A DNA stretch of 38,611 nt, from positions 1 to 38,611 of the forward strand of contig CANRJO010000008.1 in the NCBI GenBank assembly GCA_947630965.1, given 5' to 3'. This stretch comes from an uncultured Alphaproteobacteria bacterium. GTDB lineage: Bacteria > Pseudomonadota > Alphaproteobacteria > RF32 > CAG-239. Below, one piece after another: positions 16,118-32,028 of the stretch (its first letter is position 1; each line of letters opens with the position of its first letter). Under the pieces are notes generated by a model. That model saw only the letters and a program-made list of their open reading frames with translations. It was not told the DNA's origin and made no database searches. Position numbers and translations under genes: made by a program.

Positions 16118-16489
16118 TTATTTTGCCAAGTTTTTTATAAAATTCTCAAGGCGGTTGCGATTTTCATTTGCTTTATCGCCTTTGAAATACATTTCTATAA
16201 AAGTGACTTGCCTTTTACTTGCTTCCCATACAAAAATCACGCGGATTCCCGATGCTGCACCACGCCCCTTTAATGCCATACACGAAAATTTGCGAACCTT
16301 ATAAGCGCTATACGTGTTTGAGCAGAAGCCTTCCATGGGAACAAAAGCCGTTGTCGGTTGATTTTCTTCATAAAAAGTCTCCAATGTGTATTTTTTCATA
16401 ATTTCAAAATCTTTTTCCAAAGATTTGAAGCGCTTTAACAACAGTTTGAAGTCTTTATCAAATTCCGGGAGGGTTACATAGTTAATCAT
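16118..16489 (-). CDS. RelE-like toxin of a toxin-antitoxin pair
   Basis: 123 residues with the pattern of a RelE/HigB-superfamily toxin. It has a helical start (LPEFDKDFKLLLKRFKSLEKD), a central strand segment with KVRKFSCMALKGRGAASG, then IRVIFVWEA and the C-terminal VTFIEMYFKGDKANENRNR. The basic central block and the closing I-E-x-Y-x-K strand are typical of this group. Such toxins usually cut mRNA or block translation. The ATG at 16489 overlaps the antitoxin stop codon (ATGATTAA), the usual coupling; a longer frame from 16552 has no support. Specific target unknown. Confidence 0.8.
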   Translation of the reverse strand: MINYVTLPEFDKDFKLLLKRFKSLEKDFEIMKKYTLETFYEENQPTTAFVPMEGFCSNTYSAYKVRKFSCMALKGRGAASGIRVIFVWEASKRQVTFIEMYFKGDKANENRNRLENFIKNLAK

Positions 16490-17255
16490 TTTCGTCCGCG
16501 TACTCCCGAAGTGATGTGTCGTTATTTCTATAAAATACGGCCTCATAATCAATCACATCGCCCAATTTAGCGCCAATCCACGGAATGTCTTTATGAGAAA
16601 AATCAGACAATTCTTTGCCGGTCTTATCAGATAGACGCTCCAATTCTTTATCAATATGCTTCAACTCAAGCGCCGATAACAACGACAAATCAGCTTTTTT
16701 TCTAGGGAGATACTTTGTTTGATCCCGATTAAAATATTTTGTTTTGACTTCTTCCAAGTCGCCATTTTGCTCCATTTCTTTAATAAGCTTAGCAAAATCA
16801 ACGGGCGTTGGTCCAAAATTGTTCTTGAGGTATCTTAAGCCCATGAGCTGTTCTTCATAGAGTTCATAAAAGTCAAAATCAATAAAATACAACAGCTTAT
16901 ATATAACTGTTTGTCCCACATTAGGTTTTGCGCCGACTTTGTTTAAAATGTATAAGAGTACCTGCTTAAATTTAGCGATATTTTCTTGTGGGATATTTAT
17001 CCGCATATCCGTCTGAGGCTTGGAAACGCTAGTTTTCACAATATTGTACTGTGGCGTAAGCGGCATTTCATTATCAATAAAGCATGCATAATCAACGTTA
17101 AAAATTTCAGCCAGCTTTTTAATAATATCGGACGAAAAATTACTTTCGCCATTTTCATATTTGCTCAACGTTTGGCGCGTGATACCTAAGCGTGCGGCCA
17201 AATCGTCCTGAGAAATGTTTTCCCTTTCCCGTAGTGTCTTCACAATGCTCGTCAT
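16482..17255 (-). CDS. Antitoxin/regulator: XRE helix-turn-helix plus Panacea (DUF4065)-type domain
   Basis: 257 residues. Residues 1-60 are an XRE helix-turn-helix (LRERENISQDDLAARLGITR, QTLSKYENGE). From about residue 95 the protein matches the DUF4065/Panacea type: LLYILNKVGAKPNVG, KLLYFIDFDFYELYEEQLMG, FGPTPVDFAKLI, and a C-terminal helical tail. Panacea domains are known to neutralise many unrelated toxins (PanAT systems, Kurata and colleagues). Here it is upstream of and overlaps a RelE-like toxin gene. It probably represses its own promoter, since repeated TGTCAA half-sites cover the -35 region. The ATG at 17255 is used because the nearby ATG at 17259 is out of frame and stops at once. 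Confidence 0.87.
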   Translation of the reverse strand: MTSIVKTLRERENISQDDLAARLGITRQTLSKYENGESNFSSDIIKKLAEIFNVDYACFIDNEMPLTPQYNIVKTSVSKPQTDMRINIPQENIAKFKQVLLYILNKVGAKPNVGQTVIYKLLYFIDFDFYELYEEQLMGLRYLKNNFGPTPVDFAKLIKEMEQNGDLEEVKTKYFNRDQTKYLPRKKADLSLLSALELKHIDKELERLSDKTGKELSDFSHKDIPWIGAKLGDVIDYEAVFYRNNDTSLREYADEND

Positions 17256-17780: not shown

Positions 17781-20700
17781 TTAAGCCACTTTGGCATCAA
17801 AGATAATCGGCTTGCCCTCTATGGTTTCAGACGTTCCGCTTGCGGCTGTCTGCTCCACCTTAACGGCTAATACCTGCTCGGCAATATACGCCTCGTTTTC
17901 CTTGAGCGCCTGTGAAAGCTCGGCATCCGATGTCTGCCAGCTTAAAACAATGCGATCTGAAATATTAAAATCTTTATCTTTACGCAATGTTTGCACCAAA
18001 CGGACAAAGTCACGCGCAAGACCCTCGCGGACAAGCTCGGGCGTTAAAGTCGTGTTAAGCGTCGCAACCGCCTTATTTTGCGCAAACGCGCGTCCGGCGA
18101 CATTTTCTTTCATCTCAAGGCGCACTTCAAACAAATCAGGCGTGAGCGTTTGCCCCGCAATGCTCAACGTGCCGTCATCATTTAAATGCCACACCCCTTG
18201 CTTATAAGCCGCCATAACCGCGCCCATTTCTTTACCTAAAGTCTTGCCCAAAAGCGGCGTGTAAAGATAAAGCTTTTTAACGGCATAAGCGTTTAAGTCG
18301 GTATCATAGCAAACTTTTTTAACGTTCAGCTCGTCTTTCACAATCTCCTCATAAGCGGGCTTTAAGGTTGCCCCGACAAGCGTTAAGGAAGAAAGCGGCA
18401 AACGGTTGCGCAGATTTTTTTCCTCGCGGATAAATTTACCGGCGGAACATAAATCTTGCAGAAAATCCATTTCATCCATCAGGTTTTGTTGCAACTCAAT
18501 TTCGCTTAATGCCGGATAATCGGTCAAATGCACCGATTCGCCTTTGGTGAGTGTTTTATAAACATATTCACTCACAAACGGCATCAGCGGCGCCAAAATT
18601 TTGCTCAAGTTGACAAGCACAGTATAAAGCGTGTCAAAGGCTTCGGCATTGCCTTCCCAAAACCGATCGCGCGAACGGCGAATATACCAGTTGTTCAAAA
18701 TTTCCATAAACGCCGCCGCTTCCGAAGTTGCCTTTGAAACATCATAACTTTCCAAGCCCTCTTGAACGGCGTTGCGTAAATGCTTGAGCTTGGATAAAAT
18801 GTAATTATCCATCGCCTCGTTAGAACGGCTGATTTCTTTAGCCTCATATTCCTCAGCATTGGCATAAAGCGTGAAAAAGTAAAAAGCATTCCAAAGCGGA
18901 ATAAGCGCCGGGCGCGCCGCCTTGGCGATTTCTTTGCCCTCTTTATCCACAGCGACATTGCCACCCTTTAATACCGGTGAAGAAACCAAAAACCAACGCA
19001 AAGCCTCAGAGCCGATTGTTTCTAAAACCTCATTCGGATCAGGATAATTTTTGAGCCGCTTGGAAAGTTTTTGCCCACCTTCAGCCATCAACAGACCTGT
19101 GCAAATGCAGTTTTTGAACGCGGGCTTGCCCATTAAAGCGGTGGAAAGAACGGTTAATGTATAAAACCAACCGCGCGTTTGGTCAATTGCTTCCACAATA
19201 AAATCTGCCGGAAAATGACTTTCAAACCAAGCTTTATTTTCAAACGGATAATGCACTTGCGCATAAGGCATAGAGCCGGATTCAAACCAGCAGTCAAACA
19301 CGTCTGAAACGCGGCGCATAAGCGTTTTGCCGGACGGATCATCAGGGTTTTTATAAACCACATCATCAATATAAGGCTTGTGCAAATTGGTCACTTCAAC
19401 GCCTGTTTTTTGTTTTAATTCCGCCAAAGAGCCAAAGACATCAACCCGCGGATACGCCGGATTATCCGACTTCCAAACCGGTATCGGCGTGCCCCAAAAG
19501 CGGTTGCGTGAAATGGACCAATCGCGCGCGCCCTCAAGCCATTTGCCGAAACGTCCGTCTTTAATATGCTCCGGAATCCAATTAATTTGCTGATTGTTTT
19601 GCACCATTTCATCGCGAAAATCCGTCACGCGGACAAACCAGCTTGACATCGCCTTATAAATCAGCGGTGTATCGGTACGCCAGCAATAAGGATAAGTGTG
19701 CGTGTATTGTTCCTTTTTAACCAAAAGCCCGTTTTCTTTCAGAAAAGCCAAAATCGGCTCATTTGTTTCAAAAACTTGTTTTCCCGCATAATCAGACACT
19801 TCAGATGTAAATTTACCGGCCTCGTCAACAGGGCAGGCAACCGGGAACTCGGGGTTATATGCGCGGCAGACCTCAAAGTCGTCCTGACCGAACCCGGGGG
19901 CAATATGCACCACGCCCGTGCCGTCTTCGGTGGAAACAAAATCGCCCGAAAGAACCTTAAAAGCGCCTTTTTCCTTGAGGTGCTTAAAGTAAGGGAACAT
20001 CGGCTCATAAGAAAGCCCCAAAAGCTCGGCGCCTTTTATGGTGCCAACCTGAACGGCGTTTTCAAGTTGCTTTTTATAACGCCCTAAAAGCGCTTGCGCC
20101 AAAACATATTTTTGCCCGTCTTCTTCCATAACGGCATAATCAATATCTTTGCCGACAGCCAACATCAGGTTAGAGGGCAACGTCCAAGGCGTGGTTGTCC
20201 AAACCAAAATCTTCATACCATTTTCAAGGGTAAACATCACGGTAATCGCGGTATCGGTTTTTTCCTGATAGCCAAGGTTGACCTCAAAGTTTGAAAGGGG
20301 CGTTTCCGCCGCCCAAGAATAAGGCAAAACGCGATAATCTTCATAAACCAAGCCTTTATCATAAAGGGTTTTGAAGTTATGAATGACGCTTTCCATAAAA
20401 GGCAAATCCATGGTTTTATAATCGCGCGAGAAGTCCACCCAACGCCCGATTCGCTTAAACATATCAACCCAAATGCCCGAATATTTCAAAACATCGGCGC
20501 GGCAAAAATTATTAAATTTTTCAACGCCAAAGGCTTCAATTTGCTTGCGTCCTGAAACGCCGAGCTGTTTTTCAGCTGCCATTTCAGCCGGCAAACCATG
20601 GCAATCCCAACCCAAACGACGGTCAACTTTTTTGCCATTCATGGTTTGAAAACGCGCCACAACGTCTTTGACGTATGAAACCATAATATGCCCGTAGTGT

Positions 20701-20867
20701 GGCGTGCCATTGGCAAACGGCGGGCCGTCATAAAACACAAACTCCGCCGCGCCGTCACGGTTATGAACCGATTTTTCAAACGTGCGGTCTTCTTCCCAAA
20801 ATTTCAAGATTTCTTTTTCAAGCGCCACAAAGTCGGGCTTTGCTTTCACATCAGCATAATGTTTCAT
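17781..20867 (-). CDS. ileS: Isoleucyl-tRNA synthetase (IleS2, eukaryote-like class)
   Basis: It charges tRNA-Ile. The 1028 residues show the HIGH-type motif as GTPHYGHIMV (about 56-65), the editing domain in the middle, the KMSKS-type motif as GGQKLSKRLKNYPDP, and a long C-terminal anticodon-binding part. HYGH and the KLSKRLKNYPDP form are marks of the IleS2 class shared with eukaryotes and some bacteria. This class is generally less sensitive to mupirocin (established for the class, not tested here). The start ATG follows AGG by 7 bases. An Ile-rich leader peptide and a hairpin precede it (20927-20986). It is followed by a terminator next to the island border. Confidence 0.96.
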   Translation of the reverse strand: MKHYADVKAKPDFVALEKEILKFWEEDRTFEKSVHNRDGAAEFVFYDGPPFANGTPHYGHIMVSYVKDVVARFQTMNGKKVDRRLGWDCHGLPAEMAAEKQLGVSGRKQIEAFGVEKFNNFCRADVLKYSGIWVDMFKRIGRWVDFSRDYKTMDLPFMESVIHNFKTLYDKGLVYEDYRVLPYSWAAETPLSNFEVNLGYQEKTDTAITVMFTLENGMKILVWTTTPWTLPSNLMLAVGKDIDYAVMEEDGQKYVLAQALLGRYKKQLENAVQVGTIKGAELLGLSYEPMFPYFKHLKEKGAFKVLSGDFVSTEDGTGVVHIAPGFGQDDFEVCRAYNPEFPVACPVDEAGKFTSEVSDYAGKQVFETNEPILAFLKENGLLVKKEQYTHTYPYCWRTDTPLIYKAMSSWFVRVTDFRDEMVQNNQQINWIPEHIKDGRFGKWLEGARDWSISRNRFWGTPIPVWKSDNPAYPRVDVFGSLAELKQKTGVEVTNLHKPYIDDVVYKNPDDPSGKTLMRRVSDVFDCWFESGSMPYAQVHYPFENKAWFESHFPADFIVEAIDQTRGWFYTLTVLSTALMGKPAFKNCICTGLLMAEGGQKLSKRLKNYPDPNEVLETIGSEALRWFLVSSPVLKGGNVAVDKEGKEIAKAARPALIPLWNAFYFFTLYANAEEYEAKEISRSNEAMDNYILSKLKHLRNAVQEGLESYDVSKATSEAAAFMEILNNWYIRRSRDRFWEGNAEAFDTLYTVLVNLSKILAPLMPFVSEYVYKTLTKGESVHLTDYPALSEIELQQNLMDEMDFLQDLCSAGKFIREEKNLRNRLPLSSLTLVGATLKPAYEEIVKDELNVKKVCYDTDLNAYAVKKLYLYTPLLGKTLGKEMGAVMAAYKQGVWHLNDDGTLSIAGQTLTPDLFEVRLEMKENVAGRAFAQNKAVATLNTTLTPELVREGLARDFVRLVQTLRKDKDFNISDRIVLSWQTSDAELSQALKENEAYIAEQVLAVKVEQTAASGTSETIEGKPIIFDAKVA

Positions 20868-20926
20868 TGTTTTACCTATGATTTAATTAATTAAAAACAG
20901 AATATTTTCGTCAAAAATTTGAGTAT

Positions 20927-20950
20927 AAAAAAGCCATCCCCTTAGGGGAT
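20927..20950 (-). terminator. Candidate attenuator hairpin in the ileS leader
   Basis: On the minus strand, ATCCCC-TAA-GGGGAT is followed by GGC and six T. The 5' arm is formed by the last two codons of the leader peptide and the loop is its stop codon, so a ribosome held on the final Ile codons would block the stem. A further GCCAT/ATGGC pairing could extend it. The hairpin ends about 60 bp before ileS. Confidence 0.65.
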
Positions 20951-20986
20951 AATTCGTAAGATATGTATGGCATTTATATGTTTCAT
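20942..20986 (-). CDS. Putative ileS leader peptide MKHINAIHILRIIP
   Basis: A 14-codon frame with five Ile codons (positions 4, 7, 9, 12, 13). It starts after a good ribosome site (GAGGA, 4-5 bases before the ATG), only about 12 nt from the predicted transcript start. Its stop codon lies in the loop of a terminator-like hairpin. Five Ile in 14 residues directly before an Ile-tRNA synthetase gene is the classic form of an amino-acid attenuation leader. Two of the five are ATA codons, usually rare. The mechanism is inferred: scarce Ile-tRNA would stall the ribosome at codons 12-13 and open the way to ileS. Confidence 0.7.
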   Translation of the reverse strand: MKHINAIHILRIIP

Positions 20987-21004
20987 TTATTCCTCGTGAA
21001 AGTT

Positions 21005-21033
21005 AAAATATATCAAGAAAAAGCATCTGTCAA
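21005..21033 (-). promoter_or_regulatory. Promoter of the ileS leader
   Basis: On the minus strand, TTGACA (21028-21033), 17 bases, TATTTT (21005-21010). The start falls near 20998, just before the leader ribosome site. The -35 box directly abuts the T-run of the terminator at 21035-21063. Confidence 0.7.
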
Positions 21034-21034
21034 C

Positions 21035-21063
21035 AAAAAAGCCTTGGTTTATGAAACCAAGGC
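21035..21063 (-). terminator. Terminator of the small zinc-ribbon gene
   Basis: On the minus strand, AGCCTTGGTTT and AAACCAAGGCT pair perfectly over a 3-base loop and are followed by T6. It isolates the upstream gene from ileS. Confidence 0.85.
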
Positions 21064-21069
21064 TCAAGA

Positions 21070-21306
21070 TCACTGCAAAGAAGCATTAAACTCCTCAGCC
21101 TTACGGAAAGAAAAGCACCTGCATTTAGTACCGACAAGCGGCTCATTGCAATAAGGGCAACACGTCACACCGTCATGACTAACGCGCTTAAGCGGAAGCT
21201 GTCCATTCCAATCAGCAAAGAGGAATGCCGGTCTGCCATCATAAATTTTAAGATCTTTGACTTCTTTCGGTAAGAATCTCGGGTCAATAACTACTCGCTC
21301 TTTCAT
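21070..21306 (-). CDS. Small protein with a C-terminal zinc-ribbon-like Cys cluster
   Basis: 78 residues from the ATG at 21306 (MKERVVIDPRFLPKEVKDLK). The C-terminal third has CCPYCNEP...KCRC, two Cys pairs of a possible zinc knuckle. I do not recognise the family. The ATG at 21306 is chosen because the protein looks compact from there, although no clear ribosome site is seen; a longer frame to 21366 exists. It is followed at once by a strong terminator, so it is the last gene of its transcript. Confidence 0.6.
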   Translation of the reverse strand: MKERVVIDPRFLPKEVKDLKIYDGRPAFLFADWNGQLPLKRVSHDGVTCCPYCNEPLVGTKCRCFSFRKAEEFNASLQ

Positions 21307-21404: not shown

Positions 21405-22613
21405 TTATTCATGTTCCCAATCCGGTGAGGTTGGAATATTTTCCAAAAGTGTTGCGCCGACTTTCGTTGGGTGGTAGACTATGCCCATATAGTTAAGCGT
21501 AGCGGCGGTGTTTTGGACATCTAAAGTCACCATGTCCCCTGTATATTTTTTCCCGATAATAAGTGTTGCGGGCTTTTCTGCCGTGCCGTTAAAGATAAAT
21601 TTTAACTTTCCGCCCGCATAAACAAGAGTATTTTCTTTTGTATCAAGATAGCCTCCCTTACCTAACTTAAAGGTATATTCATACATGCTAGGCTTCCAAA
21701 CAACACCAAAGACATCATTTTCTACAATCATTTTTGAATCAACTAATTCAAATTCTCCATTACAAGTTCCCGAAACAACAAAACTTTTAGTCTGGATGTG
21801 AATCTCAGAATTCTTAGCATAATTCTTTGCAAAGGTAGAGTGTCCTACGAAGGCATCTGATGAAGATGAGCCAATCAGTTCCACTTTTGCATTTTCAAAA
21901 ACCAACGAAGCTGCCTCAAGAAGATGATGTTTGAAATCATTTTTCACTTCAAATTTAAGAACCCCGCTTAATGTCAAAGTTCCTGAAGTCTGGCAAAGCC
22001 ATCGATATTCTTCAGGTAAAACCGTGTTATTATTTTCATCTAAAACAGAAATATCTTCAAAAAAGCCATTACCTTGAACTGTAATAAATATTAAGCGTTC
22101 AACAGAATCAATCTTCCGATGGATATGCAGATTTTTTAATTTCGCACCATCTAAAAGCTTGAAAGATGTAAAGGTGGCTGTAATTGTATGTCCGCTACCG
22201 TCAAGGGTGGTATTCTTCGCAAGCGTGAGATTTTGATTGGCAGGAATGCTGATGTCGTTTCGCATGGTCACGACTTTACATTGACCGGAGCCTGCAAGTT
22301 CAATTAAGCTTTGCGCATCGGTTGCGAAACATGGTTTTTGACAAAGCGTCATTTTGGAGTTGCCCTTACATTCGATGAGGTCTGCGCACCAAGATGTTTT
22401 GTCCGATTCGGTAAAACCTAAAGCCGCACAGTTATACTGCACACAGACTTTATAATCCTGATCAAACGGGCAGTTAAGATAACCGTCCTCAACACAATTT
22501 GGGTCATTGCCTTTGGAATACCCTAAACTTTCACAATCTGGCACTTTCTCACAATCCATCGCATTTGCAACATTTGCAAACATCAAACCCAACAAAAACA
22601 TCAAGTATCGCAT
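21405..22613 (-). CDS. Secreted protein: Cys-rich N-terminal module plus beta-helix-like region
   Basis: 402 residues from the ATG at 22613, with GGGAG 7 bases upstream. The signal peptide MRYLMFLLGLMFANVANA is followed by about 85 residues with some 14 Cys. This module is paralogous to the gene at the left window edge. From about residue 100 there are no Cys repeats but rows of short hydrophobic strands (LTLAKNTTLDGSGHTI, KLKNLHIH). These fit a right-handed beta-helix as in surface polysaccharide-binding or adhesion proteins (inference). No anchor or autotransporter barrel is seen. Family not recognised. The stop codon lies in a weak hairpin (21380-21412). Confidence 0.85.
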   Translation of the reverse strand: MRYLMFLLGLMFANVANAMDCEKVPDCESLGYSKGNDPNCVEDGYLNCPFDQDYKVCVQYNCAALGFTESDKTSWCADLIECKGNSKMTLCQKPCFATDAQSLIELAGSGQCKVVTMRNDISIPANQNLTLAKNTTLDGSGHTITATFTSFKLLDGAKLKNLHIHRKIDSVERLIFITVQGNGFFEDISVLDENNNTVLPEEYRWLCQTSGTLTLSGVLKFEVKNDFKHHLLEAASLVFENAKVELIGSSSSDAFVGHSTFAKNYAKNSEIHIQTKSFVVSGTCNGEFELVDSKMIVENDVFGVVWKPSMYEYTFKLGKGGYLDTKENTLVYAGGKLKFIFNGTAEKPATLIIGKKYTGDMVTLDVQNTAATLNYMGIVYHPTKVGATLLENIPTSPDWEHE

Positions 22614-22651
22614 TTTATTCTCCCTTTCTATTCCTTGCGCCCGCCTCGGTG

Positions 22652-22750
22652 CCGTCATCCTGAACGCACGCCGTAGGCGTTAGTGAAGGATCCAGGAAAA
22701 AATTAGCTTTATTTATTGTCCTGGACTCTTCGCTCCGCTCAGAGTGACGG
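22652..22750. repeat. REP-like element (CCGTCATCC...AGTGACGG)
   Basis: 99 bp bounded by CCGTCA and TGACGG. It contains the paired blocks TCCAGGA/TCCTGGA and the typical phrases GTCATCCTGAAC and CTCTTCGCTCCGCTC seen between genes in many Alphaproteobacteria. It lies in the presumed 5' untranslated region of the gene at 21405-22613. Confidence 0.75.
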
Positions 22751-25665: not shown

Positions 25666-28600
25666 TTAGTTAAACATATATTGTACGCCGAGCCGTACGC
25701 CCACATCCGTGCGCGAGCCACTCCGACCAATTACCTGGAAGTTGGTGCTTAAAGCCTTGTTCCAGATTTTAGCAACGCCGGCGCCATATTGGAAGTAATC
25801 GCCGTCCATGCCGATATCGGGCAGATCCGTTTCTTCGGCTTTGCCTTGAGCATCTTGATCAAACGTAAACATATATTGCAACATACCATAGACGCTCCAA
25901 TCGTTTTGCGTATAGATCAAATTCAACTCGGGCGCCACGTTATAACCGTTCAGGGCATCTGCTTCCATAGCCAAATTACCAAAGTCGGAATCCCAATCTT
26001 GTTTGCTAAACATATTATAAGAGGCAAACAACGCAGGTTGCAACGTCAAGTTGGTATTGAGCTTGGCATTATACGCCGCACGAGCGGAAACACCGGCAAA
26101 CCAGCCATCAGTTTTATCTGTAAAGTTTTCAACCTCCATTTCGTTTTCATAAGCGCCGCCATAGACATTCGCCGCCGCAACAAAATTATCTTTCATGAAT
26201 GTTGTCATGAAGCCGGCTTGACCACCGTTTTGCTTCATATCGACATCATCATAGCTTTGGTCTGCGCCATTATAAGCCACGTAGAATGTCGGCACATATT
26301 GCCAACCGTTATCAAACGTGCCCATCGGCATATCCGCGCCGGCAATCAAGCCATAAGCATTGTTATCCACATCAAGCCCTTCGGAAAGCGAGAGTTTGCC
26401 ACCGTCATAATACGGCTTAACCCACACATTCGCGCCGCGGCCGTCATTGACCGCCTGATTAACGCGGCGTGTTTTGGCAACGCTCGATTCGTGTGACACC
26501 GTGCCGGCATGATCCAAAATCAGGTGATGCAAGACCATATCATCCACACCGAGCTGATTATAAAGCATGGCAACCTGGGAGACCTGTCCGCGGTAAGCAT
26601 TCGGATTATACGCTGAGAGCGTTGCGCGGTACCAACCTTTATTATCTTCAAGAGCTGTTAAGTCATAATAGCCCAAGGCTGTACGCACCTGATCCGCCGA
26701 TGCGGTAAAGTCCAGATTATCAACGTCACCCGCAAAGAGTTGGACCTCAACGCTTTTCGCGTTAGGCTCTTTGCCGATAACACCAAATTCTGAAACATCT
26801 AAAGTGCCGTTGCCGTTGACCTTGTCAACCACGATCTGATCGCTTTTTCCATTCGAGAAGTCCACATCAAAGGTAAAGTGGCTCACACCGTCAATGGTCA
26901 ATTCATCAACCGTCAGCGTTTGTGCCGCGCCATTGTTAAAGCCGAACGTAGAACCTTTTGACATGCTCAGATTTTTAAGGTTCATATCCGAACCATGGTC
27001 AAAGGCAATGTATGAATTCACAAGTGCCACACCGCCATCCTTAACATTGAATAGATCACTGTGAAGAAGCATCTGCGAATTCTCAAAGGTTACATCACCT
27101 GATTCTTGGTTAAAGGCACCACCAATTTTCTCAAGATCAGAGAATTTCACCGAGCCACCGTTATTATTGATTGTGCCCTGCCATACATCATCTTTTTGAC
27201 CTAAGGTCAGCGATGCACCGTCATCCACATTAAGTGTGGAACCTTCTAAAATTTTGACCACAACATCGTCACCAATCGTGCTGCTTTCCTTTTTGCCCTC
27301 TTCACCGATTGTCATGACAGAGCCGTCAAGGAGCGTTAAGTTACCCGATGTTGCAGTTAAATTGCCATTCGTGGTTGTGGCGTAATAAAGGTTGCCACCG
27401 GCAAGGTTAATATTACCGTCCCACTTATCTTCATCGCTAATCATGATAGAGCCGAGGCTGAGTTTCAACGTTGCATCTTTTGCAATATTGAGCGCAACCG
27501 GATCATCAATGAAGCTATTTTTAGAAGTAAGGTCTAACGTGGCACCCTCCAAGATGTTTAAGTTACCTCTTGAAGCTTCCAACGTGGCATTCGTGCCCTC
27601 ATCAACCGTCACACCCTTGCCAAATTTCAGCGTACCACCGTCCAAAACTGTATGACCTTGGGTGGTATCGCCCTCGTTCAGGCTCAAAGTACCACCTTGA
27701 GCAACATAAACCGTGGCGTTATCACCGATGGTTGTTTTAACACCATCGCCAATCATGCTACCGTTATCCAAGCGAAGCTTGCTACTCGCACCAAGTGTCA
27801 CTTTACCACCTGTAGCATTCAAAATGCCGCCAGACTCTGGTTGCGTAGCTGATGTTGTGTCGAGGTTAAAATCACCACCCTCAACATTAATGGTGCCTTC
27901 CCAAACCGAACCTTCCTTGAGGGTAAGATCGCCACTTTGAACCGTCATGGTTGAACCGTTGTCAAGGCCTACAATGGCGTTAATGGAATCCCCATTGCCC
28001 AAAGTGAATTTTTTATTTTCGGCAAGCTCAAAGATGGTTGCATCACCATGCACAGTCAATGTCCCCTTTGCCCGCTCTGCATCGGTATTCCAGAACAAAG
28101 AACCGCCGGAAACATCTGACTTTCCACCAAAGAACGTGCCTGTCACTTCGGTTGCGCCGCCTGTTTGATTAAAGGCGCCTTTAAACTCGGAAGCATCACC
28201 TGTTAAGCTCAAATCGCCTTCATTGGAGAGTGATCCTCCGGAACCTGAAAAACTTTCGGACAATGTCAACATACCTGTGTTGTCCACGGTTCCGGTATTT
28301 TCAGCATTTTGAAGCTCCAAGACGGAAGTATTAGTCAGCTTGCTCGTATTCTTAAGTACGTCCACCTTGCCCTTGCCGCTAAAGGTTGCGGTTGCCGTAC
28401 CCGTATTATGAAGCTCGGCAAATGTATCATCGCCTGCAAAAGTGGCTGTACCTGTGTCGGCATTTGTGACAAGACTGTTAAAGGTGTTTTGACCAAGGGT
28501 AACAATATCACCTTCATTATAAACATCGTTTTTACCTTCCGGCAACGATGTTTCTGCCGCAAGCATAATACCACTTTCCGGCTCCCAAGCATCAACGGTC

Positions 28601-31600
28601 ACACTATCAAGGATCATGTAGCCGTTTTGATCATTATAAATGGCGCCACCCTTACCGTTTTCGCCGGCTTCGTTGTTCTTCAAAGTTGATGAGGTCAAAT
28701 AAAGCCCTGAAGTGAAGTGCTCGCTGTTCTTGGTACCACCATTGTTATAAATCGCGCCGCCTTTACCGCTAGACGAGTTGTTTTGAATAATCAGGTTTGA
28801 CATATCCACACGGGCATTGGCATTATTGTTCCGCAAAACGGAACCGCCGCCTTTTGTAACATCCGTACGCCCGGCATCTTGGATGGTCAGGTCTTTCACA
28901 TGCAAACTAACATCGCCCTCTTCCAAATCAAAGAAACTGCCTCTTCGCTCTGTGAGTTCTTCGTGCTTATCGTCAACAAGTTTTCCGGACAGAACATCTT
29001 TTTCCCGATTATTATTTTCCCCGAAAACGGAAAAGTCTCCATTTTCCATTGAATCAAGTGATTTTTGGCTATGATATGCACCATCTGTAAAGTTAGAGCG
29101 CACGCCATATTGACGGTTACCATCATGCTTATTCATTGTAGCAAGCGGATCATCGCCCGCCACGCCTAATTGCTTAATTGTCACCTTTCCGGCGTCTTCG
29201 GTAGAAGTAGAGACTTTATACTCAAATTTATTGGTGGAAACAAGTGTCTTCCCGTCAACAAAACCTAATTGCACGGCACCTTCACTTTGCAAGACAGAGC
29301 TACCCTCATATATTTTACCTGTAGCCTGAACCTCTTCCCCGCCGATATAAATGTTGCCAAGAGTCCACTTTAAGGTTGGCAACCCGCTGCTTTTGTTCTT
29401 AAACTTAACCGTATCGCTCGTAAATTTATATTTGTCATTTGTCGGAGCTTGAAGTCGCACATCAAAATGAAGCTTATTTGTCCCTTCCATGAAAGAATCC
29501 GTGAAAGTATAAGCTTTTGTTTCCAACTGATCATCATGCAAGTTTAAGCTGGAGTCTTTAAACCCGACATTATTGAAATCCGTGCCGTCAAGTGACACTT
29601 TTGTGTTCTCAAAGACAACTTTATTATTGTTTACTGTAACCTGATCCGAAAGCGTGAAACCGCCCGAACCTGTAAAGGTTGCCTGTGAATTTGACCCGCT
29701 AAAGGTTAAATTGTTATTATCAATTGTTTCAAGAGCCTCGGTCGTAGAATTATGTTTCCATGTGGCGTTACTGCCAAGCGTCACGCCATAATCCAATTTA
29801 TCTTGCGTCACATCAAGCGAGCCACCGTTAATGTTGTTGGTACCCTTAAACATTTTACCGTTGACGGTCGTGGTGCCTGCTGTTTGGGTAAAATCGCCCG
29901 TAAAGCCCGAGGCATCACCATTTAAGTTCAAATCTCCCGAGTTATCAAACTTGCCATTGCCGGAAACAGCACCCGCAAAAGTGAGTGTACCGCTGTTGGT
30001 CCAGTCTTTATTATTTTCAACAGCCCCTGTCACGCTTACTGTACCTGTGGTGGTCACGGTGCCGCTGTTGGTCACTTTACCGCTGATGTCACCGTCGGCA
30101 AAGGTCAACGTGGCATCTGTCTCATTTGTCACATCGCCATGAGCTTCCAATTTGCCGTCAACTGTAAACGTGCCATGGTTATCAATTTTGGCCGTATGCG
30201 CATCACCATGAACAGTGATCGAAGATTGAGCGTCCGTGTTCTCAATATCCACATTGTGGACAGTTAATTTTTGAGCCGTGATTTTGCCTTCGTTCTTTAA
30301 GGGATTAGCAAAAACAACCTCCTCGTCATCTTTACCTGTGGCTGTCACCGTCAAGGTACCTGACAAAGTAACCGTGCCTTTATTTTCATCAAAGACAGTC
30401 GTTGTCAAATTCTTTGCGGTAAAGGAGGCATCCTTATCATTAAGCTTCAAAGTTTCAACGGTCGCATCATTCTCACCCAAATCGATTGTGCCACTATTGG
30501 TCAGCGTTTTCGCCTTCAAGGTGGCACTGTTGCCCGTTGCCTTAAAAGTGGCGTCTTTTTTATTCTCAAAAACACCGCCGTCAAACGTGTTGAGATAGTG
30601 CCTAATAGTACCTGAGTTCTTCACGCTTTCTGCCGTTAAGTTGCCGAAGTTCTCAATTGTACCATGTTCTTCGTTATTGATTTCACTAAAAGTAGAATCC
30701 CCCTTATTCGTCATTTTGCCGGAATTTTTAACCGTCACATTTTGAAGCTTATTTTCGCCCGTTTCCAATGACAAATCAGCAATATGTTGTCCGTCAACCG
30801 TTAAGGTTGAATTGCCCGTACCGCTATTATAACCTTGCACCACCAAATGCAAAGCGTCCAGAGCGCTACTTTCTTCTGGTGTCAGAGCGGTTGCCAAAGC
30901 TTTTAAGGTGTTCCCTGCCGTTTCTGTTAAATTTTTAAGCGTTAAGGTAGAGTTTGAAGAAGCTTTAAGCTTCAAACTTTCACCCAAACCGCTATCACTT
31001 GAACCAGAAAGCGTCAATTTTGTATTTTTCAAATCAAGCGTGCCATCGCCCTTCACTTGCTTATTTAAGGTTTGCCCGTTTCTGTCCTGAAGTGTCAGCG
31101 TGCTATTCCCATTGATGGTAATATCCACATCGGAGTTCAAGTCATCTTTTGCTCTTAAAATCAGAGAGGCTGTTTTTTTACCATCACCACTTCCTGTTTC
31201 GCCAACCTCCAAGGATGAACCGCTTTGAAGTGTTAATTTGCCGTCAAGAGCCCTGTTTGTCAGCCACTTTAACGTACCACCTTCAAATGTTGTGTTATTC
31301 TTAAAAAAGTTCAAAACATTTCTGACTTCAACATCCCCACTCTTATTTGTAAATGTACCAGCATATAATGAGAAATTTGCAGCCATGCTATCACTATCAC
31401 CACCCAAAACAAGTGTACCCTCTTCATGCGTGACGCTAGCATCAGATGACCAACCAGATATACCCGATTCGAGTTTAACTTTCCCTTTACCTTTGATGGT
31501 CAGGCTAGCTTTGTCACCCAAACCAACGTCAGCGCCCCTAGAAGGGCCTGTGGACGACTCTCTATTGTTGGAAAATTCGACTGTTTTACCCTCATCTGCC

Positions 31601-32028
31601 TCAATAACCACTTTTCCATTGCTGTAAATGGCACCATCATAAGGAGCAGCGCTCCCATTAAAATTTTTGACACTTATATTTTTCAAAGTCAAAGTGGTAT
31701 CACTTCCTTCAACGACAAAGCCCCTTGATAATTTGCTCTTATCGCCGCCATTCTTACCGTCTAATATTTCTGAACCTGCTTGACCTTGAATTGTTATTGC
31801 TTTTGGTTTTGGTTCTGATTCTGATTCTTTATCAATTTTTATATACTGTGAGAACTTAATATCGCTTCCTGTTACAACAATGATATCTTCTTTTTTTTCT
31901 GTTAGAGCTCTTTGCAGATCCTCAAAAGAAGAAACCGTATTATCTTCCGCTAAAGCCGAGGAAATATTGGAAAGACTAACAAGTGCCGTTGATAAAAGAA
32001 GGAGAGCTGTCAAATTCGTTTTTGTCAT
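25666..32028 (-). CDS. Giant autotransporter (type Va) with repetitive beta-helix passenger
   Basis: 2120 residues. A signal peptide (MTKTNLTALLLLSTALVSLS..., cleavage near SALA) leads a passenger of about 1830 residues. The passenger is full of short strand repeats (GTLTV, GNGTL, NNGSV, NSGTI) rich in Gly, Asn, Thr and Ser and almost without Cys: a beta-helix. Two stretches repeat one another (GTTTVNGKMFKG... and GATEVTGTFFGG...). The last 250 or so residues (from NVWVKPYYDGGK) form the autotransporter barrel, ending in VGVRLGVQYMFN with the usual C-terminal aromatic strand. It should be exported to the surface by type Va secretion. No protease triad or named adhesion motif was seen; adhesion is inferred. 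AAAAGGA precedes the ATG. Confidence 0.93.
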   Translation of the reverse strand: MTKTNLTALLLLSTALVSLSNISSALAEDNTVSSFEDLQRALTEKKEDIIVVTGSDIKFSQYIKIDKESESEPKPKAITIQGQAGSEILDGKNGGDKSKLSRGFVVEGSDTTLTLKNISVKNFNGSAAPYDGAIYSNGKVVIEADEGKTVEFSNNRESSTGPSRGADVGLGDKASLTIKGKGKVKLESGISGWSSDASVTHEEGTLVLGGDSDSMAANFSLYAGTFTNKSGDVEVRNVLNFFKNNTTFEGGTLKWLTNRALDGKLTLQSGSSLEVGETGSGDGKKTASLILRAKDDLNSDVDITINGNSTLTLQDRNGQTLNKQVKGDGTLDLKNTKLTLSGSSDSGLGESLKLKASSNSTLTLKNLTETAGNTLKALATALTPEESSALDALHLVVQGYNSGTGNSTLTVDGQHIADLSLETGENKLQNVTVKNSGKMTNKGDSTFSEINNEEHGTIENFGNLTAESVKNSGTIRHYLNTFDGGVFENKKDATFKATGNSATLKAKTLTNSGTIDLGENDATVETLKLNDKDASFTAKNLTTTVFDENKGTVTLSGTLTVTATGKDDEEVVFANPLKNEGKITAQKLTVHNVDIENTDAQSSITVHGDAHTAKIDNHGTFTVDGKLEAHGDVTNETDATLTFADGDISGKVTNSGTVTTTGTVSVTGAVENNKDWTNSGTLTFAGAVSGNGKFDNSGDLNLNGDASGFTGDFTQTAGTTTVNGKMFKGTNNINGGSLDVTQDKLDYGVTLGSNATWKHNSTTEALETIDNNNLTFSGSNSQATFTGSGGFTLSDQVTVNNNKVVFENTKVSLDGTDFNNVGFKDSSLNLHDDQLETKAYTFTDSFMEGTNKLHFDVRLQAPTNDKYKFTSDTVKFKNKSSGLPTLKWTLGNIYIGGEEVQATGKIYEGSSVLQSEGAVQLGFVDGKTLVSTNKFEYKVSTSTEDAGKVTIKQLGVAGDDPLATMNKHDGNRQYGVRSNFTDGAYHSQKSLDSMENGDFSVFGENNNREKDVLSGKLVDDKHEELTERRGSFFDLEEGDVSLHVKDLTIQDAGRTDVTKGGGSVLRNNNANARVDMSNLIIQNNSSSGKGGAIYNNGGTKNSEHFTSGLYLTSSTLKNNEAGENGKGGAIYNDQNGYMILDSVTVDAWEPESGIMLAAETSLPEGKNDVYNEGDIVTLGQNTFNSLVTNADTGTATFAGDDTFAELHNTGTATATFSGKGKVDVLKNTSKLTNTSVLELQNAENTGTVDNTGMLTLSESFSGSGGSLSNEGDLSLTGDASEFKGAFNQTGGATEVTGTFFGGKSDVSGGSLFWNTDAERAKGTLTVHGDATIFELAENKKFTLGNGDSINAIVGLDNGSTMTVQSGDLTLKEGSVWEGTINVEGGDFNLDTTSATQPESGGILNATGGKVTLGASSKLRLDNGSMIGDGVKTTIGDNATVYVAQGGTLSLNEGDTTQGHTVLDGGTLKFGKGVTVDEGTNATLEASRGNLNILEGATLDLTSKNSFIDDPVALNIAKDATLKLSLGSIMISDEDKWDGNINLAGGNLYYATTTNGNLTATSGNLTLLDGSVMTIGEEGKKESSTIGDDVVVKILEGSTLNVDDGASLTLGQKDDVWQGTINNNGGSVKFSDLEKIGGAFNQESGDVTFENSQMLLHSDLFNVKDGGVALVNSYIAFDHGSDMNLKNLSMSKGSTFGFNNGAAQTLTVDELTIDGVSHFTFDVDFSNGKSDQIVVDKVNGNGTLDVSEFGVIGKEPNAKSVEVQLFAGDVDNLDFTASADQVRTALGYYDLTALEDNKGWYRATLSAYNPNAYRGQVSQVAMLYNQLGVDDMVLHHLILDHAGTVSHESSVAKTRRVNQAVNDGRGANVWVKPYYDGGKLSLSEGLDVDNNAYGLIAGADMPMGTFDNGWQYVPTFYVAYNGADQSYDDVDMKQNGGQAGFMTTFMKDNFVAAANVYGGAYENEMEVENFTDKTDGWFAGVSARAAYNAKLNTNLTLQPALFASYNMFSKQDWDSDFGNLAMEADALNGYNVAPELNLIYTQNDWSVYGMLQYMFTFDQDAQGKAEETDLPDIGMDGDYFQYGAGVAKIWNKALSTNFQVIGRSGSRTDVGVRLGVQYMFN

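Follow-up and report, generated by a model that had tools for sequence, protein, structure and literature searches.

Control of aminoacyl-tRNA synthetase genes by leader peptides is less rare than the original prediction for this locus had it. Leaders of pheST, leuS and trpS are known or predicted, that of pheST in gammaproteobacteria and those of leuS and trpS in Streptomyces (PMC1262725), and Caulobacter has a mapped trpS leader together with an ileS leader CDS (PMC4117421). Our search covered the open-access literature, and ileS may figure already in a 2010 survey of synthetase attenuators (Lopatovskaya et al., cited in PMC10272879). The ilvB leaders of Actinobacteria have short ORFs with Ile/Val/Leu codons that overlap candidate terminator hairpins (PMC1262725), and the uORFs of Corynebacterium ilvB-II are 15-17 aa long, BCAA-rich and accompanied by a proposed antiterminator stem (PMC10272879). 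How far a ribosome reaches has been measured in E. coli. There, a Rho-independent terminator is suppressed if translation goes on within 27 nt of its hairpin, and a terminator that worked at about 90% efficiency fell below 10% once a stop codon was moved to 5 bp before it (PMC4824070).

The window analysed here is the whole 38,611-nt stretch of contig CANRJO010000008.1, from an uncultured alphaproteobacterium. Its minus strand carries ileS preceded by a short Ile-rich ORF, a hairpin and a T run (Table 1). We consider it likely, from comparison with related loci, that a ribosome-mediated attenuator controls this type-2 ileS. When we re-read the minus strand, the coordinates, peptide, hairpin, stop-codon loop and T6 of the original prediction all proved correct. 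The Ile codons of the leader ORF MKHINAIHILRIIP are numbers 4, 7, 9, 12 and 13. The last of these and the Pro codon (ATC CCC) form the 5′ arm of the hairpin, which we call P2, and the stop codon TAA is its loop. Folding predicts a stability of -9.5 kcal/mol for P2. The promoter boxes match the consensus at 10/12 positions; promoter and start-site assignments are by pattern. The encoded IleS matches TIGR00392, and its nearest solved structures are eukaryotic cytoplasmic and bacterial type-2 enzymes. MupA/MupB models cover it nearly full length, below their cut-offs. We take the enzyme to be of type 2 partly from general knowledge.

Table 1. Features of the ileS leader region, in window coordinates.
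Feature	Position	Strand	Details	Basis
Terminator of upstream small gene	21039..21065	-	strong, 12 pairs + T run; separates that gene from the leader transcript	sequence
Promoter of leader/ileS transcript	21005..21033	-	TTGACA (21033-21028), 17-nt spacer, TATTTT (21010-21005)	sequence pattern
Shine-Dalgarno of leader ORF	20991..20995	-	GAGGA	sequence
Leader ORF	20942..20986	-	MKHINAIHILRIIP-stop; 14 codons, 5 Ile; ATG at 20986, stop TAA 20944-20942	sequence; homologous ORF in 73 relatives
Hairpin P2	20936..20950; with G-U pairs 20952-20934	-	ATCCCC (20950-20945), loop TAA, GGGGAT (20941-20936); extendable by two G-U pairs	folding; coupled arms in relatives
U-tract	20927..20932	-	T6, after P2 and a C	sequence; U-rich tract at stop+12 to +19 kept in relatives
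Long-range helix P1, imperfect here	20920..20985	-	20985-20968 (5′ arm) pairs with 20936-20920 (3′ arm); four runs make up 13 pairs, mismatches between	folding prediction; helix class backed by partner swaps in relatives
Leader tail up to ileS	20868..20919	-		in relatives G-poor, C richer than G
ileS, isoleucyl-tRNA synthetase, type 2 (eukaryote/MupA-like)	17781..20867	-	1028 aa; start ATG at 20867; own Shine-Dalgarno at 20878-20875	profile and structure matches

On the window genome alone, the ileS leader is not beyond chance. It is comparison that makes the case solid, and the leader is lifted above chance because it is conserved in relatives. The leader RNA of the window folds no better than shuffled sequence (z -0.78). 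The region holds 2 promoter-like sites vs. 3.1 expected from shuffles, and 5 terminator-like sites vs. 1.3 expected. Several dozen ORFs in a genome-wide scan of upstream short ORFs are more extreme in amino-acid bias than the ileS leader, which stands roughly 45th (composition bias p about 8e-4). The same composition scan found nothing convincing as a leader of other synthetases in this genome. The most biased upstream ORF in the scan is a Cys-rich one of 29 codons (MGCLCCDFGYPCRRGVCCNHGFNACATTC), 119 nt upstream of a recombinase-like gene (L152 11228-12130, minus strand); it may be chance.

The short frame and its Ile codons, on whose conservation the original prediction depended, are kept at 73 of the 79 related ileS loci whose upstream DNA could be used, and the Ile-rich ORF overlapping an attenuator-like hairpin before ileS is thereby borne out. 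The relatives' DNA comes from MAG contigs. Six loci are exceptions. Five of them (L078-L081, L083) make up one deep outgroup clade, and in L076 the contig breaks off within the leader. The conserved ORFs have 12-17 codons, are 39% Ile, and end in Ile-Pro-stop in all 73 cases. The stop codon is TAG in 59, TAA in 12 and TGA in 2, and lies inside the P2 loop in 73/73. Since three different stops are used, it is the stop function that is kept, not one DNA word. The coding frame gives a peptide body with 30% Ile and no stops; the other frames have 11% and 7% Ile, with stops. Upstream of the ORF, TTGAC is found at the same place in 65/73 leader-bearing loci and the 17-nt spacer in 71/73. In the nearest genome, of the same genus and with 98.5% identical IleS, the peptide body is largely different (MIKVLNIIRFIIIP), yet the leader retains Ile codons, the Ile-Ile-Ile-Pro-stop ending, a hairpin ATCCCC-TAAA-GGGGGT and T7.

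The leader is also specific to ileS. Its core motif ATYATCCCYTRRGGG occurs exactly once per genome in 41/49 genomes of the window's family (the reversed control gave 0), and it lies 73-113 nt upstream of ileS at all 30 loci checked. Among the family genomes missing the core motif, the same-genus genome and G299 carry variant leaders, and three of genus g227 are without the leader. Beyond the family, the leader turned up in a single genome, which belongs to another family (G050, MSDIRSISIIISIIIP); 49 ileS upstream regions sampled from the class, excluding families f1 and f50, held no leader of the present type. The lack of the leader in the outgroup genus and in other sampled alphaproteobacteria suggests that it arose within this lineage. 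One database title needs a remark here. L073 (JAISVX010000003.1) is titled Lactobacillaceae bacterium, but a genome search puts the contig of the same length (L170, G299) in the alphaproteobacterial family of the window, so the title is probably a mistake.

AUA makes up 47% of the leader Ile codons vs. 12% genome-wide. We rejected selection for a rare regulatory codon as the cause, as local base composition mostly explains the enrichment: AUA is 42% among the out-of-frame ATH triplets of the same segments. Separately, two loci of small-genome alphaproteobacteria with 46-47% IleS identity, L109 (G068) and L110 (G188), have short ORFs (MKKAMIIIIK and MKQKSIIIIK) about 100 nt before ileS, followed by a GC-rich hairpin and a T run ahead of the gene. 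These Ile leaders are of a different, probably convergent type that looks more like a multi-hairpin attenuator.

The two arms of P2 change together across the relatives. CCCT goes with GGG in 45 leaders and CCCC with GGGG or GGGGG in 26, with 2 exceptions. A U-rich tract is conserved at stop+12 to +19. In the window and its genus, P2 and the T6/T7 that follows have a good terminator shape (-8 to -9.5 kcal/mol). In many relatives the U-tract begins 3-5 nt past a stem of 5-6 bp, which is weak for an intrinsic terminator.

The original prediction had a single hairpin. In the relatives, a covarying long-range helix, P1, also closes the start of the leader onto sequence past that hairpin, joining the Shine-Dalgarno/start-codon region with stop+8 to +30. 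The sequences of P1 vary widely (AAAAAGATGC-GCATCTTTTT, TATGTGCA-TGCACATA, ATACGCAAA-TTTGCGTAT, AATGCCC-GGGCATT), with 39 distinct helices among the 52 leaders that have a clear P1. When partners were swapped between species, the cognate arms scored 18.3 vs. 14.3 for swapped ones (z 10.9; 7.5 dereplicated). Thermodynamic folding gave 10.3 expected pairs vs. 7.2 with swapped tails. The sister species L033 and L052 have compensatory changes (GCGCAG-CTGCAC vs. GCGTAG-CTACAC). A sign test on independent pairs of the tree found 3.7/5 concordant and 0 discordant, too few pairs for significance. P1 is clear in relatives and weak in the window.

Where the 3′ arm of P1 falls differs among species. It begins no later than stop+14, on the U-tract or adjoining it, in 31/52 leaders with a clear P1, and in these the whole ORF would form the loop of a composite terminator. 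It begins at stop+15 or later, beyond the U-tract, in the other 21/52. Thus, for about 40% of the species with a clear P1, the predicted geometry is unlike that of a plain intrinsic terminator. Most leaders (L005-L083) also have an ACATAAA / TATATAAAA-like stretch at stop+20 to +28, even where this is outside P1. This stretch may be part of the RNA's function as an element, or else the -10-like box of a second ileS promoter.

The placement of the Ile codons fits the measured reach of the ribosome. Across the 73 leaders, 369/373 Ile codons are no more than 24 nt away from where P2 begins, and codons further upstream are almost never Ile (4/73 at codon -13 and 0/73 at -12). With a measured reach of 27 nt, a ribosome waiting at any of these codons could therefore hold P2 open. 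The original prediction confined the stall to Ile12-Ile13, and this was too narrow, as Ile codons from about codon 4-5 on are also within reach of the hairpin. A search of the 73 leaders for words that could pair with the GGGGAT arm as an antiterminator showed none to be conserved. In 46/73 leaders all the tested words lacked an upstream match, and the matches in the remaining leaders were mostly ATTCC, from the Ile-Pro codons. Because there is no conserved antiterminator and the Ile codons are within reach of P2, the ribosome itself is the best candidate for the antiterminator, as had been proposed.

The conserved ORF, its frame and Ile codons, the stop-in-loop hairpin, the U-tract and the covarying P1 of the relatives come from sequence comparison, and from them we infer leader translation, termination, the direction of the response and the role of P1. 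RNA polymerase would start from the promoter at 21033-21005, and a ribosome would load on the Ile-rich leader ORF. With charged Ile-tRNA plentiful, the ribosome would finish the ORF and leave. P2 would then fold, plus P1 where it is well formed, shutting the leader start onto the sequence past P2, and RNA polymerase would halt at or soon after the U-tract, ahead of ileS. When charged Ile-tRNA is short, the ribosome would wait on an Ile codon, all of them from about codon 4-5 on being within about 24-27 nt of P2. Stalled at the late codons it would hold P2 open; stalled at the early ones it would, judging from footprint size, cover the start arm of P1. Transcription would then continue into ileS. 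The scheme would have no separate antiterminator hairpin, and the ribosome would take that role.

The stop codon in the P2 loop tells against this scheme, in that termination should be suppressed by a ribosome in active translation as well (PMC4824070). If ribosomes stayed close behind RNA polymerase, the terminator would be blocked in Ile-replete cells too, so the switch must depend on dwell time and pausing. Given the position of the stop codon, only pausing, or coupling that is loose, would allow the switch to be strong. The off state would be the closed P1/P2 leader, acting through intrinsic termination or, in some lineages, perhaps through Rho. We tentatively suggest a fuller reading, possible rather than probable, in which P1 makes the leader ORF the loop of its own switch. 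A ribosome held at any Ile codon would prevent the structure from closing, with no need of an antiterminator hairpin, and once P1 closed, leader translation would stop as well. The lineages with P1 beyond the U-tract would then have Rho-type shut-off with the same sensor.

An Ile-sensing leader in which Rho, not an intrinsic terminator, performs the shut-off is, in our estimate, unlikely. Here the ribosome would leave, P1 would close the start and prevent reloading, and Rho would bind the G-poor tail and end transcription ahead of ileS. The leaders of tnaC, mgtL and corL follow the same Rho logic. The tails themselves (stop+24 to ileS, L005-L083) have 5.1% G and 14.8% C, vs. 17.4% and 14.9% in control upstream regions, and G of at most 4% with C of at least 10% is found in 58% of leaders vs. 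0.6% of controls. This low G with normal C resembles Rho-loading RNA, although G depletion could instead spare the ileS ribosome site from structure and stray start codons, and the window's own tail is not C-rich (3 G and 2 C in 35 nt). The 21/52 leaders in which the 3′ arm of P1 is made only past the U-tract point towards Rho; the conservation of the U-tract points away from it. Unless P1/P2 gates access, a stalled ribosome on its own would bare more RNA and so help Rho just when it should not act; for this reason we place intrinsic attenuation above Rho. The Rho gene is absent from the window's MAG, probably through a gap in the assembly. We rejected this absence as proof of intrinsic termination, since Rho is present in 40/43 family genomes, the same genus included, which suits the Rho reading.

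If the leader and P1/P2 acted on translation or reinitiation, setting the supply of ribosomes to ileS and not its transcription, the shortness of the tail between leader and ileS would make sense, as would its being so G-poor that start codons and Shine-Dalgarno-like sites are scarce. However, the ileS Shine-Dalgarno is sequestered by neither P1 nor P2, starvation for Ile would lower reinitiation and not raise it, and the U-tract would go unexplained; we find this very unlikely. The palindrome ATCCCYTARGGGAT could in principle be a DNA operator for a regulator with the ORF incidental to it, for it is a near-perfect inverted repeat and its sequence is almost invariant. An operator would not explain why the reading frame, the Ile codons and a functional stop, spelled in three ways, are kept, nor why a covarying RNA helix encloses the ORF, and the site occurs once per genome in 41/49 genomes and only before ileS (30/30 checked). 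We thus hold this highly improbable. The dispersed form of the idea, an operator with several copies at several promoters, was rejected: such copies were not found, there being one per genome with the coding frame kept. The weak statistics of the window genome alone would allow a chance short ORF over an ordinary terminator, without regulation. Against this stand the 73 relatives that keep the leader and the comparison within the genus, and we give chance virtually no credence.

Other genes in the window drew our attention. A secreted-looking protein (21405-22658, minus strand) has MRYLMFLLGLMFANVANAMDCEKVPDCESLGYS near its start and no NCBIfam match. Its paralogues elsewhere in the genome (L168, L256, L258, L271, L157 and L241) are perhaps a lineage-specific expansion. 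At 16118-17255 (minus strand), the gene of an HTH regulator, whose C-terminal domain is unnamed, shares sequence with an overlapping ORF of 144 aa; the HTH matches PezA, HipB and DarG-like models, all below cut-off, and the pair looks like a toxin-antitoxin-type module. A 2120-aa protein (25666-32028, minus strand) appears autotransporter-like by eye, with a repetitive passenger and a barrel-like C-terminal end, and has no NCBIfam match.

The attenuator proposed here would extend leader-peptide control to ileS of the type-2 (mupirocin-resistance-like) kind, and would add to it a large clade of uncultured gut Alphaproteobacteria. Its architecture would be compact, the ribosome alone serving as antiterminator. 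With more than 70 variants found in nature, it can readily be tested up to what distance from the hairpin a stalled ribosome is able to prevent termination, and how antiterminator stems come to be lost or replaced in such switches.

Among the known systems, T-box riboswitches before ileS are alike in gene class and signal, but are tRNA-binding RNAs without a leader ORF, unlike the leader in the window. Window positions 20700-21200 gave no T-box match in Rfam up to E 5, and no Rfam family above the gathering score, the only matches being sub-threshold chance ones. The pyrBI attenuator of E. coli senses UTP via RNA polymerase pausing, whereas the signal proposed here is the charging of Ile-tRNA, read through Ile codons. 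The likeness is in the layout, as pyrBI also has a terminator inside the leader ORF, the body of the ribosome blocks folding, and distance is decisive (PMC4824070). The ileS leader CDS of Caulobacter crescentus, CCNA_03934, is likewise a small CDS upstream of an alphaproteobacterial ileS; its source shows it as a CDS serving for negative control, and we liken it by position, not sequence (PMC4117421). The ilvB-type leaders share a short ORF with BCAA codons overlapping a candidate terminator, but belong to biosynthetic ilv operons and not to ileS, and ilvB-II has its proposed antiterminator stem. With the leader-peptide attenuators (E. coli trp, his and ilv; pheST with pheM), the present leader has in common a short Shine-Dalgarno-led ORF rich in the cognate amino acid, and a hairpin and U-tract before a gene whose product acts on that same amino acid. 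It differs from them in having no conserved competing antiterminator hairpin, in the stop codon inside the hairpin loop, and in the P1 helix that encloses the ORF in relatives. Because a competing antiterminator was tested for and not found, we do not file the ileS leader as a classical trp-type attenuator; on its conserved features it is best called a leader that would work like one, with a different architecture.
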